Shown here: positions 35,402 through 39,448 of the stretch, in pieces
How the letters are laid out: every line of letters begins with the position of its first letter
Position numbering within the stretch: position 1 is the stretch's first letter
Source of the DNA: Ruania zhangjianzhongii
Lineage (GTDB): Bacteria > Actinomycetota > Actinomycetes > Actinomycetales > Beutenbergiaceae
Length of the DNA stretch: 64,000 nt
Assembly: GCF_008000995.1 (NCBI RefSeq)
Contig: NZ_CP042828.1
Location: 1,488,001 to 1,552,000, forward strand
Direction of reading: 5' to 3'
Position numbers and translations under genes: made by a program
Notes under the pieces: generated by a model
What the model saw: the letters and a program-made list of their open reading frames with translations, nothing else
What the model was told of the DNA's origin: nothing
Databases searched by the model: none

Positions 35402-35496
35402 CAGCAGTTCCTTTTCTGTGGGGATGCCACCAGCCTCACGCGCATCGGACCTATCTGTCCAACATCAGAAACCGATCAGAAGTATCATTGGTAGAT

Positions 35497-36378
35497 ATGG
35501 AACTGCACCAGTTGCGCTACTTCCTCGCGGTCGCCGACACTGGATCGTTCACCGCTGCGGCAGGGGCGGTGCGGGTCAGCCAGTCCGGTATCAGCACCCA
35601 GGTGCAGAAGCTGGAACGCGAGCTCGGGCTCTCGCTGATCGACCGCTCGGCGCGCCGCATCTCGTTGACTCCTGCCGGGGAGCGGCTGGTGCCATTCGCG
35701 CGCGGGGCGGTCTCCGCCGTCGAGGACGTGTCCGGGGCCGCGGCCGACATCCGGGGACTGGTGACCGGATCACTCAGTGTCGCGACGGTGACCGGCCTGG
35801 CGTGGCCCGGACTGTTCGACGCCCTGGCGACGCTGCACGCACAACACCCCGGTATCGACATCCGCCTCCGCGAGGGGACTTCCCAGGACCTGATCGAGCA
35901 GGTGCGCGAAGGTTCGGCCGATGTCGCGATCGCCGCATGGTCCGACGTCGAACCGGCCGGCCTCCGGTCCTGCGTGGTCTTCGATGACGCGCTGGTCGCG
36001 GTGGTCGCCCGCGGCCACCCCTGGGCTGCGCGCAGTGGCCTGAGAGCCATCGATCTCGCCCACGCCGACCTCATCACCCTCCCGCGCGGAACCGGGGCCC
36101 GTGCAGCGCTAGAGACGCTGATGACCGGTGTGGGTAGCACTGTCGAGCCGCGCTGGGAGGTCACCACGCCCACGTTCGTGCAGATGCTCACCACTCGCGG
36201 GCTCGGCGTGGGCATCGTGAGCGCGACGACCGCCGAGCAGTGGGACGGAGTGGTCGCCGTGCAGGTCTGCGATGGACGCGCGCGCTCGCGGCTCGGCATC
36301 GTCTGGCGGGACCGGCCGAGTCACGCAGCCCGCGCGCTGGTGGACGAGCTTGAGCAGCGCGGCACCGCTCAGATGTAG
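35497..36378 (+). CDS. LysR family transcriptional regulator
   Basis: 293 residues from ATG 35497. N-terminal winged [41 protein letters not shown], then the C-terminal substrate-binding domain with the usual [27 protein letters not shown] ends 8 nt before ATG, suggesting a leaderless mRNA. ATCGG-N23-CCGAT in the 95-bp divergent region is a candidate operator shared with the AhpD-like operon. The gene overlaps cysE at their 3' ends by 10 bp. Confidence 0.92.
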
Positions 36379-36947
36379 ATCGCCGGGTCGATCAGGTCGT
36401 CCTCGGCGCGGGCGGGAACGTGCCGGGGCCGCCCCGGTACGCCCACCACCACGGCGCCGTCGGGCACATCCTTGACCACCACCGCGTTCGCCCCGACCTG
36501 CACGTCGGACCCGAGGGTGACCGGGCCGAGGACTTTGGCTCCGGCACCGATCACCACCCGGTCGCCGACCGTCGGGTGCCGCTTGCCCTTGCTCATCGAG
36601 CGTCCACCCAGGGTGGAACCGTGGAACATCAGCACGTCGTCGCCGACCACCGAGGTCTCCCCGATCACTACCCCCATACCGTGGTCGATGAAGAACCGCC
36701 GACCGAGTACTGCCCCAGGGTGGATCTCCACTCCGGTGAGAGCGCGCGCCAGCTGGGACAGCAGGCGTGCCGGGAGTCGCAGGATCTGGGTGCGCCACAT
36801 CTGGTGTGCCAGCCGGTACAGCCACAGGGCGTGCACGCCGGGGTAGGTCAGCGCCACCTCGACGGCGGAGCGTGCGGCCGGGTCACGGCGTCGCGCCGTG
36901 GCCAGGTCCTCGGCGATCAGATCGCGCAGGGGCAGGTGGGGTGACAC
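36369..36947 (-). CDS. cysE: Serine O-acetyltransferase
   Basis: 192 residues from GTG 36947 (GAGGAG upstream). Hexapeptide acyltransferase: [40 protein letters not shown] and [20 protein letters not shown] are CysE-typical. It is the short actinobacterial/plant-like form. It makes O-acetylserine for CysK and lies 13 bp downstream of cysK, the whole unit following a cysteine-rich leader. Confidence 0.95.
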
Positions 36948-36960
36948 GTGCTCCTCGGTC

Positions 36961-37896
36961 TCACTCGGCCAGGTCGGCGAACAGCAGGGTGGACAGGTAG
37001 CGCTCACCGAAGTCCGGGATCACGGCCACGATCGTCTTCCCGGCGTTCTCCGGGCGCTTCGCGACGTCGACGGCGGCCTTCAGCGCAGCGCCGGAGGAGA
37101 TGCCCACGAGCAGGCCCTCTTCCCGGGCGGAGCGGCGGGAGTAGTCGAGCGCGTCGTCAGTGGCGACGGGGATCACCTCGTCGTAGATGCTGGTGTCCAG
37201 CACCTCCGGGACGAAGTTCGCGCCCAAGCCCTGGATCTTGTGCGGTCCGGCCTGGCCACCGGAGAGGATGGGGGAGTCCGCGGGCTCCACCGCGATGATC
37301 TGCACCTCGGGCTTGCGCTCCTTCAGCACCTGGCCGACCCCGGTGATGGTGCCGCCGGTACCGACACCGGACACGACGATGTCGACGTTGCCGTCGGTGT
37401 CGTTCCAGATCTCCTCGGCAGTGGTCCGGCGGTGGATCTCTGCGTTCGCCTCGTTCGCGAACTGGCGGGCGAGCACCGCCCCGGGCCGCTCGGCGGCGAT
37501 CTGCTCCGCCTTCTCCACGGCACCCTTCATCCCGCCGGAGCCGGGGGTGAGGACGAGCTCGGCACCGTAGGCGCGAAGGAGCATCTTGCGCTCGTTCGAC
37601 ATCGTCTCCGGCATCGCCAGCACCACGTGGTACCCGCGGGCGGCGCCGACGAACGCCAGCGCGATCCCGGTGTTCCCGCTGGTGGCCTCGACGATGGTGC
37701 CGCCGGCGGGCAAGTCCCCGGAGGCTTCGGCGGCGTCGATGATCGACACCCCAATCCGGTCCTTGACGCTGTTGGCGGGGTTGTAGAACTCGAGCTTGGC
37801 GAGCACTGTGGCGCTCGCGCCCTCGGTGAGCGAGTTGATCCGCACCAGCGGGGTGTTGCCGATGAGCGCGGTGGCGTCGTCGTAGATACGTGCCAT
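36961..37896 (-). CDS. cysK: Cysteine synthase A (O-acetylserine sulfhydrylase)
   Basis: 311 residues. PLP lysine in [11 protein letters not shown]; substrate loop [23 protein letters not shown]-phosphate loop [14 protein letters not shown]-terminal [10 protein letters not shown]. It condenses O-acetylserine with sulfide. It is first in the cysK-cysE operon, 138 nt downstream of a short ORF ending in Cys-Cys-Cys-Pro-stop and two alternative hairpins, so cysteine-responsive control is likely. Confidence 0.97.
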
Positions 37897-37994
37897 GAGA
37901 GGAAGTCCTTTGCTGCTAGTGGTCGGTAGATGCTGCTGAGCTGGTAGTGCCCGTCCGGTGTGGCGGGCTCAGGCAGGTGCTGCAATGCGTCCTA

Positions 37995-38035
37995 GCCTGC
38001 GGGGCGAGCGCGGGGGCTCGCAGGCGCCCGCGCTC
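37995..38035 (-). promoter_or_regulatory. Mutually exclusive hairpins in the cysK leader
   Basis: On the minus strand GAGCGCGGG (38027-38035), whose first base is the last base of the leader stop codon, pairs with CCCGCGCTC (38006-38014). Alternatively GCCTGCG (38019-38025), in the loop of the first stem, pairs with CGCAGGC (37995-38001). Both stems are perfect and cannot coexist, as expected of a ribosome-controlled attenuator. Confidence 0.6.
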
Positions 38036-38088
38036 TACGGACAGCAGCAGCCAGACGGCACGATCACGGTCAGCCGCGAGGGCGACAT
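38035..38088 (-). CDS. Poly-cysteine leader peptide of the cysK-cysE operon
   Basis: A 17-residue ORF, MSPSRLTVIVPSGCCCP, runs from ATG 38088 to TAG 38035. GGAG lies 6 nt before the ATG, and TAGGAT (about 38126-38131) is a plausible -10 with TTCCGG 16 bp further upstream. Three consecutive Cys codons (TGC TGC TGT) one codon before the last make translation sensitive to Cys-tRNA. Poly-Cys short ORFs attenuate sulfur operons in mycobacteria (established knowledge); use here is inferred. Confidence 0.7.
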   Translation of the reverse strand: MSPSRLTVIVPSGCCCP

Positions 38089-38171
38089 CCGAGCTCCAAT
38101 TGGTTGAAGGTGCGAGTGAATCGCATCCTATCCTCTCACTTGTCGCCCGGAACTGGAACAGCACGGCCCCG

Positions 38172-39179
38172 TCAGTGACCACCGGCGGCGGAGGCCTCCC
38201 GGCTGCGCTCGGCGATCGTGTTCAGCAGGGCCGCAACCTCTGCCGCGCCATCGATGGTCACCACGAACACCCGGTCCCCGGACCGCTGCACCTGGATCGC
38301 CTCGCCGGCCCGAGTGACGACCCCGGTGCGACCGTCTCCAGCCGCGCGCAGCCCCCAGCCGCCGAACTCCTGGAAGGGGGATACCTGGACGACGTCAGCG
38401 CGCACCACCTCGTTCGCCGGGATCTGCTCGCGCGGCCAGCCCGCCTGCGCGGCGACGGTCAGGCCGCGATGATCGATGCGTACCCGCCAGCGGAGCAGAC
38501 TTAGCGGCAGGGTGCCCACCACGACCACGAACGCCACCGGCCACCAGTGTCCGGTGGCGCTAGCGAACCACACGCCGAGGCCGAGGAGCACCGCTGTGGC
38601 GAGCCAGATCGGCCAGACCCGCGTGGTGCGTGCTTCCCCGGCCCAGAACGCCGAGGTGGGCAGAGCGGATCGCGGTGCGTCTGCGGGCACCGGGGCGGTG
38701 CTCGGCTGCGGAGGGTCATCGCCGGCGAGAGCTCCGGCGCCGAAGCCGATGACCAGTGCCGCCACGACCGTCACCGCCATGCCGATCGCGGGATCGGCGG
38801 CAGCCGCCGGGTCGATGACGTCCAGTTGGACTGCCGCACTGCTGAGGACGATCCCGGCGAACAGTGCACCCATCCCGGCCGAGACCCCCACCAGCAGCCG
38901 CCTGGTGAGCGCGATTCGGGCGGCGGTGAGGCAGAGAATGCTGACGATCAGCCAGCTCACCCCGCCGAGCACCAGCGGCACGGCGATCAGCTCGGACAGG
39001 CTGCCGGTGCGATCGACCCCGTTCGGCCCCCAGTGCACAGCGACCTCCGGTGGCATCCGGTCCCGCCAGCTCAACACCACCAGCACTGCGGTGACCAGAA
39101 GCACGGCCGGCAACGCGATGCCGAGCAGCACCGTGCGGGTACGGTGAGGGGGTGGAGCTTGAGCCACAGCGGAGTACAC
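38172..39179 (-). CDS. DUF1648-containing multi-pass membrane protein
   Basis: 335 residues from GTG 39179; a GTG at 39230 is possible but overlaps a -10-like TAGGGT. Helices near 15-35, 65-90, 100-125, 135-155, then two more after a Pro/Ala linker. PPEVAVHWGPNGVDRTGS is the DUF1648 signature (periplasmic loop). A C-terminal ~100-residue soluble domain with PH-like strands follows (RWRVRIDHRGLTVAA). Function unknown; related proteins include SdpI-like immunity factors. Confidence 0.75.
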   Translation of the reverse strand: MYSAVAQAPPPHRTRTVLLGIALPAVLLVTAVLVVLSWRDRMPPEVAVHWGPNGVDRTGSLSELIAVPLVLGGVSWLIVSILCLTAARIALTRRLLVGVSAGMGALFAGIVLSSAAVQLDVIDPAAAADPAIGMAVTVVAALVIGFGAGALAGDDPPQPSTAPVPADAPRSALPTSAFWAGEARTTRVWPIWLATAVLLGLGVWFASATGHWWPVAFVVVVGTLPLSLLRWRVRIDHRGLTVAAQAGWPREQIPANEVVRADVVQVSPFQEFGGWGLRAAGDGRTGVVTRAGEAIQVQRSGDRVFVVTIDGAAEVAALLNTIAERSREASAAGGH

Positions 39180-39448
39180 CTCGCGAAGTTCGTCACGGCC
39201 GTCGTCACGGATTTCGATCCACAGCAGCACCCTACTGTGAGTGATGCGTCACATCTGCTGCGAACCAGGGCGGATGTGCTGCTGCGCGGCTAGGTGTTCC
39301 CGCCAACTTGTGGGTATCATCGTCCGGGCGCTTCGTGACTGCAGTCTCGCGCGCCCAGCGTGTGCTGCCAGGGTGCGGACCGTGTTCCGGCGCCGCCAGC
39401 CACACTCCTGACGCCGCAACCGCGCAGCCGAACTAGAGGGAAGCAGAC

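Follow-up and report, generated by a model that had tools for sequence, protein, structure and literature searches.

Upstream of cysK and cysE in the window (the whole 64,000-nucleotide stretch of DNA that was analysed), a short leader ORF with a run of Cys codons ends in a stop codon that provides the first base of a conserved RNA hairpin. On comparative sequence grounds we put the chance that this element is a cysteine-responsive, ribosome-mediated attenuator of cysK–cysE, working through one hairpin and with Rho-assisted termination as its likeliest output, at slightly better than even (about 0.55). If this is true it would be a minimal attenuator, comprising one hairpin and one stop codon, and the fixed UGU-C ahead of the stop might show how stall sites depend on the choice of codon or how termination is read. 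With the comparison, control by cysteine leaders would reach 16 genera of the window's order, Cellulomonas and Demequina (Micrococcales) among them. The comparison also yields a conserved RNA structure, whereas the 2005 survey of Actinobacteria (PMC1262725), in its available text, reported none.

The leader ORF and the cysK operon

The leader ORF (MSPSRLTVIVPSGCCCP, 17 codons) occupies 38035–38088 on the minus strand and starts with the ATG at 38088. Its Shine–Dalgarno (SD) sequence, GGAG at 38094–38097, is spaced 5 nt from the ATG, and the 3' end of the ORF carries the run TGC-TGC-TGT (38049–38041), reading Cys-Cys-Cys-Pro-stop up to the TAG at 38035–38037, all on the same strand. The leader precedes cysK, encoding cysteine synthase A (36961–37896, minus strand; TIGR01139, 449.7 bits against a cut-off of 350.95), and the next gene on the strand, cysE, encoding serine O-acetyltransferase (36369–36953; TIGR01172, 237.3 bits against 210.65, the family search having used 36372–36953 and the cysE start codon being provisional). 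This is the arrangement of an amino-acid attenuator: a leader ORF with Cys codons upstream of a cysteine biosynthetic operon. When the window was re-read, the ORF, stop, Cys codons, SD sequence and both stems of the sequence-only reading were all present at the coordinates it had given. An 88-residue ORF overlapping the leader in another frame was rejected; TGA interrupts that frame in locus L006.

A −10-like hexamer, TAGGAT (38125–38130, minus strand), lies 42 nt upstream of the leader ATG and is the predicted promoter. Among the leaders compared below, TANNNT hexamers occur upstream of the ORF in 51 of 71 (17% in shuffles), most often 35–36 nt ahead of the ORF start, and within the spacer in 1 of 71 (18% in shuffles); L219, which lacks an SD start by the set used, was excluded from this count. 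Since such hexamers lie upstream of the ORF and are rare in the spacer, the cysK transcript is predicted to start upstream of the ORF and so should include it. The promoter signal thus points away from a transcript beginning past 38035, the outcome that the sequence-only reading had named as speaking against its proposal. An in-frame start with an SD-like stretch was found in 71 of 72 leaders with a loose set of tetramers, for which the rate of 0.136 counts positions and not leaders, and in 58 of 72 with a stricter set.

Several features of the surroundings were recorded. The upstream neighbour (38172–39230, minus strand) is a 352-residue ORF with no NCBIfam hit, and a gene that looks similar by eye stands before cysK in L008, L012 and L015, which have no element; the element therefore seems to appear and disappear within an unchanged gene neighbourhood. 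A stretch of the 5' leader, TTCAACCAAT(T/C)GG, seen at about 38096–38109 of the window (TTCAACCAATTGG) and in L009, L016, L017 and L019, is kept in Occultella-type cysK upstream regions that have neither ORF nor hairpin, and is perhaps an operator near the promoter. Beyond the operon, a LysR-family regulator gene (35488–36378, plus strand) lies tail to tail with cysE; its 25 best models include CysB-like ones, and all 25 score under their own cut-offs. The window's own genome and that of Cellulomonas hominis (L040) gave no match to PAPS/APS reductase (PF01507), which was found in all 14 control genomes; judging by its genome sequence, the organism of the window may be without sulfate reduction.

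Conservation of the hairpin and of UGU-C

In the window the hairpin pairs a 5' arm, GAGCGCGGG (38027–38035), with a 3' arm, CCCGCGCTC (38006–38014), both conserved and on the minus strand. The stem has 9 bp, with 38035–38027 paired with 38014–38006 and the G of TAG as its first base, and folds alone at −18.1 kcal/mol. The entire stretch in the window folds at −26.0 (z of −1.15), and 28 of 200 shuffles were equally good. Because this fold alone does not stand above shuffles, relatives were needed to judge the hairpin, and its significance, as far as sequence can tell, rests on comparison with them.

CysK was searched for in 99 relative genomes, of which 82 were positive at an E value of 1e-80 or better, and the sequence upstream of cysK was read at 84 loci from relatives (450 or 700 nt) and at 80 named loci, sets that partly overlap. 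The motif TGTCNNTAGAGC stands upstream of cysK in 22 of the 84 and 17 of the 80, 38 elements being distinct; the conservation among relatives of a leader ORF with Cys codons, for which the sequence-only reading had proposed to look, was thereby confirmed. Named carriers include Cellulomonas, Demequina, Isoptericola, Promicromonospora, Myceligenerans, Antribacter, Georgenia and one Gordonia, G. zhenghanii (L043), which we take to lie outside the Micrococcales. The NCBI taxonomy places Demequina and Cellulomonas in the Micrococcales.

A covariance model, R1, was built from relatives and run on 297 genomes of the order. It matched 57 of them, once per genome, and 55 of the 57 matches lie upstream of cysK. 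Fifty matches were read as loci L171–L220, the other seven being cysK loci already read; 48 of the 50 have CysK downstream, with the motif 98 to 244 nt upstream of it in 47 and, as a TAGGGC variant, about 256 nt upstream in L218. The weak matches L216 and L220 have no CysK downstream and were scored as misses. With two weak R1 matches removed, the spread across the order is 16 of 95 genera. In a sample of the class searched under stricter filters, 2 of 394 genomes matched, both in the window's order. A wider scan of 164 cysK upstream regions admitted any Cys codon two before any stop, provided that the ORF had an SD-led start in frame and that at least 7 bp of stem lay close to the stop, and returned 39 hits against 1.2 per pass in shuffled regions: 33 canonical, four variants of the same element (L053, L145, L160 and L166, all with TGTC) and two probable chance hits. 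L161 was removed as a chance hit from 73 leaders, and the 72 that form the comparison include L027, a near-duplicate of L025.

Relatives carry the element, but its distribution is narrower than had been hoped. In the window's genus it is present in 3 of 8 genomes sampled and absent from 5, and its canonical form is missing from 62 of the 84 relative cysK loci, 3 of those 62 having variants. Rfam 15 gave one weak, unrelated hit for the window's leader at E values up to 5, and tRNAs only for five relatives' loci at the gathering threshold. Candidates for further copies in the window's own genome were rejected: TGTCNNTAGAGC had one extra match, inside a long ORF on the opposite strand, and TGYTGYTGYNNNTRR had 54 matches besides cysK, of which the four examined (L251–L254) look like other frames of genes.

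That the first arm begins inside the stop codon is true in the window, and the stem is rooted at the stop across the 72 distinct leaders. In 67 of 72 the stem that extends from the G of the stop codon is 7 bp or longer, the shuffles giving a mean of 4.2 and a maximum of 10. The longest stem averages 8.5 bp from this G and 2.9 bp when started one base earlier, where 1 of 72 leaders reaches 7 bp. The motif-only set was picked regardless of pairing, and in 35 of its 38 distinct elements the stem that begins at the stop codon reaches 7 bp or more. Alignment A1 comprises 35 of the 38 distinct elements, L037, L049 and L052 being excluded for their long loops. In its 9-pair stem 93.2% of cells are paired, compared with 85.0% after column shuffling (none of 500 shuffles reaches the value) and 31–48% when the stem is slid, the real stem being favoured over slid versions as its structure was derived from the same sequences. 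There are 25 double-change cells in the stem against 7.2 in shuffles. Because four pairs never vary, two other measures do not exceed the shuffles: three pairs show double changes, a number that 328 of 500 shuffles reach, and there are nine further pair types, which 134 of 500 reach; covariation is confined to three pairs, one of which appears in all four Watson–Crick types. In ensemble folding the stem forms with a probability that averages 0.84; the value exceeds 0.5 in 61 of 72 leaders and is about 0.50 in the window's own. Against shuffles the stem has a mean z of −3.13, with 90% of leaders below −2, in a comparison for which the 3' arm was chosen by complementarity.

The loop ranges from 12 to 77 nt among the leaders. 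Since the arms covary at such different loop lengths, it was judged unlikely that they form a DNA operator. No leader of the 72 has a U-tract (at least 4 T in the 8 nt following the stem), and an intrinsic terminator was rejected, none having been found in the leaders examined. A chance ORF and hairpin of GC-rich intergenic DNA, a reading which the unremarkable fold in the window would favour, is refuted by the conservation and covariation over 16 genera, and we give it practically no weight.

The second stem of the sequence-only reading fared differently. Its arms, GCCTGCG (38019–38025) and CGCAGGC (37995–38001), both on the minus strand, join the loop of the first stem to its 3' flank in a helix of 7 bp (−11.4 kcal/mol alone in the window sequence), and neither is conserved over the 72 leaders. 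The two stems were said to be perfect and mutually exclusive; both are present, but they have no bases in common, and they are incompatible only if pseudoknots are disallowed. Blocking of the first arm was expected to favour the second stem, and without the 5' arm the rest of the window's stretch is indeed predicted to fold into that stem and a short inner helix (−15.3; z of −1.04, 34 of 200 shuffles as good), but conservation is wanting. Within the genus the second stem has one compensatory change (L006) and one mismatch (L007), and over the 72 leaders the loop/3' flank pairing is at chance level, with a mean z of 0.1 and none below −2. Covariation, which was to be sought in both stems, was thus found in the first, the second being at chance.

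Seven alternative pairings in all were compared with shuffles: loop with 3' flank, 3' arm with downstream sequence, motif with upstream and with downstream sequence, ORF end with 3' arm, and the cysK ribosome site with the motif and with the end of the 3' arm. Their mean z values range from −0.07 to 0.31, and no pairing has more than 7% of the 72 leaders below −2. The terminator-type pairing of the 3' arm with a downstream partner has a mean z of −0.07; the cysK ribosome site (last 25 nt) is at chance level both with the motif (0.31) and with the 3' arm end and tail (0.20). Among the pairings tested we therefore find a single conserved stem, rather than a terminator and an antiterminator that are both conserved and exclude each other.

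The sequence UGUC, formed by the last Cys codon and the next base (38040–38043, minus strand, in the window), is invariant. In all 72 leaders the last Cys codon is TGT, the base after it is C and the codon lies two codons upstream of the stop; the pattern used for the codon rule left the TGC/TGT choice and the following codon free. A covariance model containing the UGUC motif was the only source of 33 of the 72, and TGT is also found in 39 of 39 leaders taken from cysK upstream regions. The preceding 14 codons hold 226 other Cys codons in the 72 leaders, 187 of them TGC and 39 TGT. Within the final 15 codons the last Cys is the sole one in 5 leaders, and 67 have two or more. The residue that follows it varies (Leu, Arg, Pro, Gln). 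TGTC occurs in 37 of the 39 hits of the wider scan, the exceptions L066 and L134 looking like chance, and UGUC is kept with a TGA stop (L145) or a stem reading GGGC (L053, L160 and L166). We attach no probability to the codon rule because the leaders are kin. The attenuator model leaves the choice of UGU over UGC, and the following C, unaccounted for. The idea that the rule is common to mycobacteria was dropped, as the matches examined look like ordinary Leu-Leu-Ser coding.

Proposed attenuation model and rival explanations

In toeprints the front edge of a ribosome lies about 12–13 nt beyond the A-site codon. With the first arm starting in the stop codon, a ribosome on the last Cys codon would, on this geometry, cover the foot of the hairpin. 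We propose that when Cys-tRNA is short the ribosome would wait with UGU in the A site. The front edge would then cover the stop codon and the GAGCG foot, so that the hairpin would stay open and the operon be expressed; of these first five stem bases, four never vary in A1. When cysteine is plentiful the ribosome would terminate and depart, the hairpin would close and expression would fall, through premature, factor-dependent (Rho-assisted) termination within the C-rich spacer. The polarity in which a stall opens the hairpin is preferred because a ribosome stalled at UGU would cover the stop and the first five stem bases, and stalls two or more codons upstream would fall short of them. This polarity also fits the account given of the mycobacterial polycysteine ORFs.

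The output step is the least certain part of the model. Rho-type termination of transcription is the likeliest output since the leaders show no U-tract, conserved alternative helix or ribosome-site pairing. The spacer from the hairpin to the cysK SD sequence (37911–38005, minus strand) is about 95 nt long in the window; across the leaders, measured to a point 15 nt short of cysK, it spans 23 to 182 nt. It is richer in C than in G in all 72 leaders, with means of 47% C and 25% G. Among controls, which are cysK upstream regions and not matched 5' UTRs, C exceeds G in 70 of 124 mixed regions that include other phyla, in 33 of 61 from relatives without the canonical motif (35% C, 32% G) and in 24 of 36 of the latter when limited to at least 65% G+C. 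Because the C-richness extends to the ORF end and loop, and GC-rich controls also lean to C, it is weak evidence for Rho.

The patchy presence of the element counts against the model. So does the prospect that a ribosome held at one of the earlier Cys codons would not keep the hairpin from forming, which suits the opposite, trp-like polarity: stalls on upstream Cys codons would let the hairpin form, and the hairpin would permit expression as an antiterminator or as a mask over a Rho site, whereas termination at the stop would place a ribosome over the 5' arm and expose the 3' arm and the C-rich tail. The length of the 5' arm is about what a ribosome at the stop would cover, and many of the Cys codons in the 67 leaders that have at least two in their last 15 codons are too distant to touch the hairpin. 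We nevertheless consider this polarity unlikely, for it is the Cys codon nearest the hairpin that is invariant, and sometimes the only one, and the 3' arm is without a conserved downstream partner (mean z of −0.07).

Two further readings were weighed. Leader structure might mask the cysK ribosome site until a stalled ribosome frees it, as in translational attenuation of the mycobacterial style, the mechanism class reported for polycysteine ORFs (PMC13236596, in its available text; reportedly also Canestrari 2020). The chance-level pairing with the last 25 nt before cysK, the distance of about 95 nt between hairpin end and SD sequence in the window and the wide range of spacer lengths make this distinctly improbable here. 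Alternatively CUGUCNNUAGAGC and the hairpin might be the binding site of a protein or small RNA, with the Cys codons partly a by-product. UGUC is indeed invariant as nucleotides, even beside a TGA stop or a GGGC stem, but Cys codons in frame are common far ahead of the motif and both loop and stem differ in sequence between leaders, and we see only a slim prospect for such a site. A ribosome-mediated attenuator with one hairpin remains our preferred reading.

Relation to known cysteine leaders

Mycobacterial polycysteine ORFs, which are said to work by translational attenuation, are leaderless, whereas the element described here, with its SD sequence and predicted 5' UTR, is probably not. Further differences here are a TAG stop within a conserved hairpin, the UGUC rule and no conserved hiding of a ribosome site. 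Common to both, as far as the available texts go, are a short ORF that carries a run of Cys codons close to its 3' end, a position ahead of sulfur or cysteine genes and, as proposed here, ribosome pausing as the sensor; such ORFs control cysteine genes in M. smegmatis (Canestrari 2020 as cited in PMC13236596 and PMC9031893) and have been described by Shell 2015 (PMC4633059) and in PMC9094748, citing Canestrari 2020. Six polycysteine candidates from Mycolicibacter and Gordonia were fetched, and a convincing gene directly follows two, L300 (MEHVGFQGCCCRS) and L301 (MRASLCPLARCCCH), both from the Mycolicibacter genome of L112. These two (n = 2) have a TGA stop and no stem longer than 5 bp that starts between positions −3 and +6 relative to the stop's final base. 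They lie 55 and 49 nt upstream of the next gene, named by eye as cysteine-dioxygenase-like and O-acetylhomoserine-sulfhydrylase-like, respectively.

Cysteine leader peptides of Actinobacteria were already proposed by Seliverstov 2005 (PMC1262725) for Mycobacterium, Propionibacterium acnes (cys) and Bifidobacterium longum (cbs), with Rho suggested, which narrows what is new here. Those leaders share with ours the runs of Cys codons close to the stop. The available text of that survey reports no conserved hairpin able to terminate and does not mention cysK, whereas a hairpin is the core of the present element. In the Rhodobacterales the uORFC-8-2 motif of cysS has tandem Cys codons in a uORF with stems, and ribosome-mediated attenuation has been proposed (PMC8632094); the text available describes a terminator-like stem with a U run, a first stem that holds the Cys codons and cysS downstream. 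Unlike uORFC-8-2, the element here has a stem that starts at the stop, no U-tract in any of the 72 leaders and cysK downstream.

In E. coli tnaC a ribosome at the leader stop controls the access of Rho to the adjacent RNA, arrest depending on the TnaC peptide and free tryptophan. Compared with tnaC, the residue after the last Cys varies here and the hairpin abuts the stop. Eight leader peptides are listed for S. lividans, none of them for cysteine in the available text (PMC8079986). In a literature search that covered mainly freely available papers, no description of the present element appeared among the matches listed. It is a variant, with a stop-rooted hairpin, of the polycysteine leaders known from mycobacteria, and the variant is new. 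More tentatively, and at clearly less than even odds, the element may form a separate class of cysteine attenuator whose single, stop-rooted hairpin reads ribosome position directly, without terminator/antiterminator exchange or hiding of a ribosome site, with the strict UGU-C at the penultimate codon acting as a signal of its own at the RNA or decoding level (for example a wobble stall codon or a protein contact).

Short ORFs of another kind were seen in Chloroflexi/Chloroflexota MAGs (L084, L100, L104 and L108), about 100–230 nt before cysK. They contain C-x-C (MTHCICTRRGH, MFTCICRRRGS, MFTCSCLRRGS and a related one), are followed by hairpins with U runs, as judged by eye, and look like classical cysteine attenuators of cysK.
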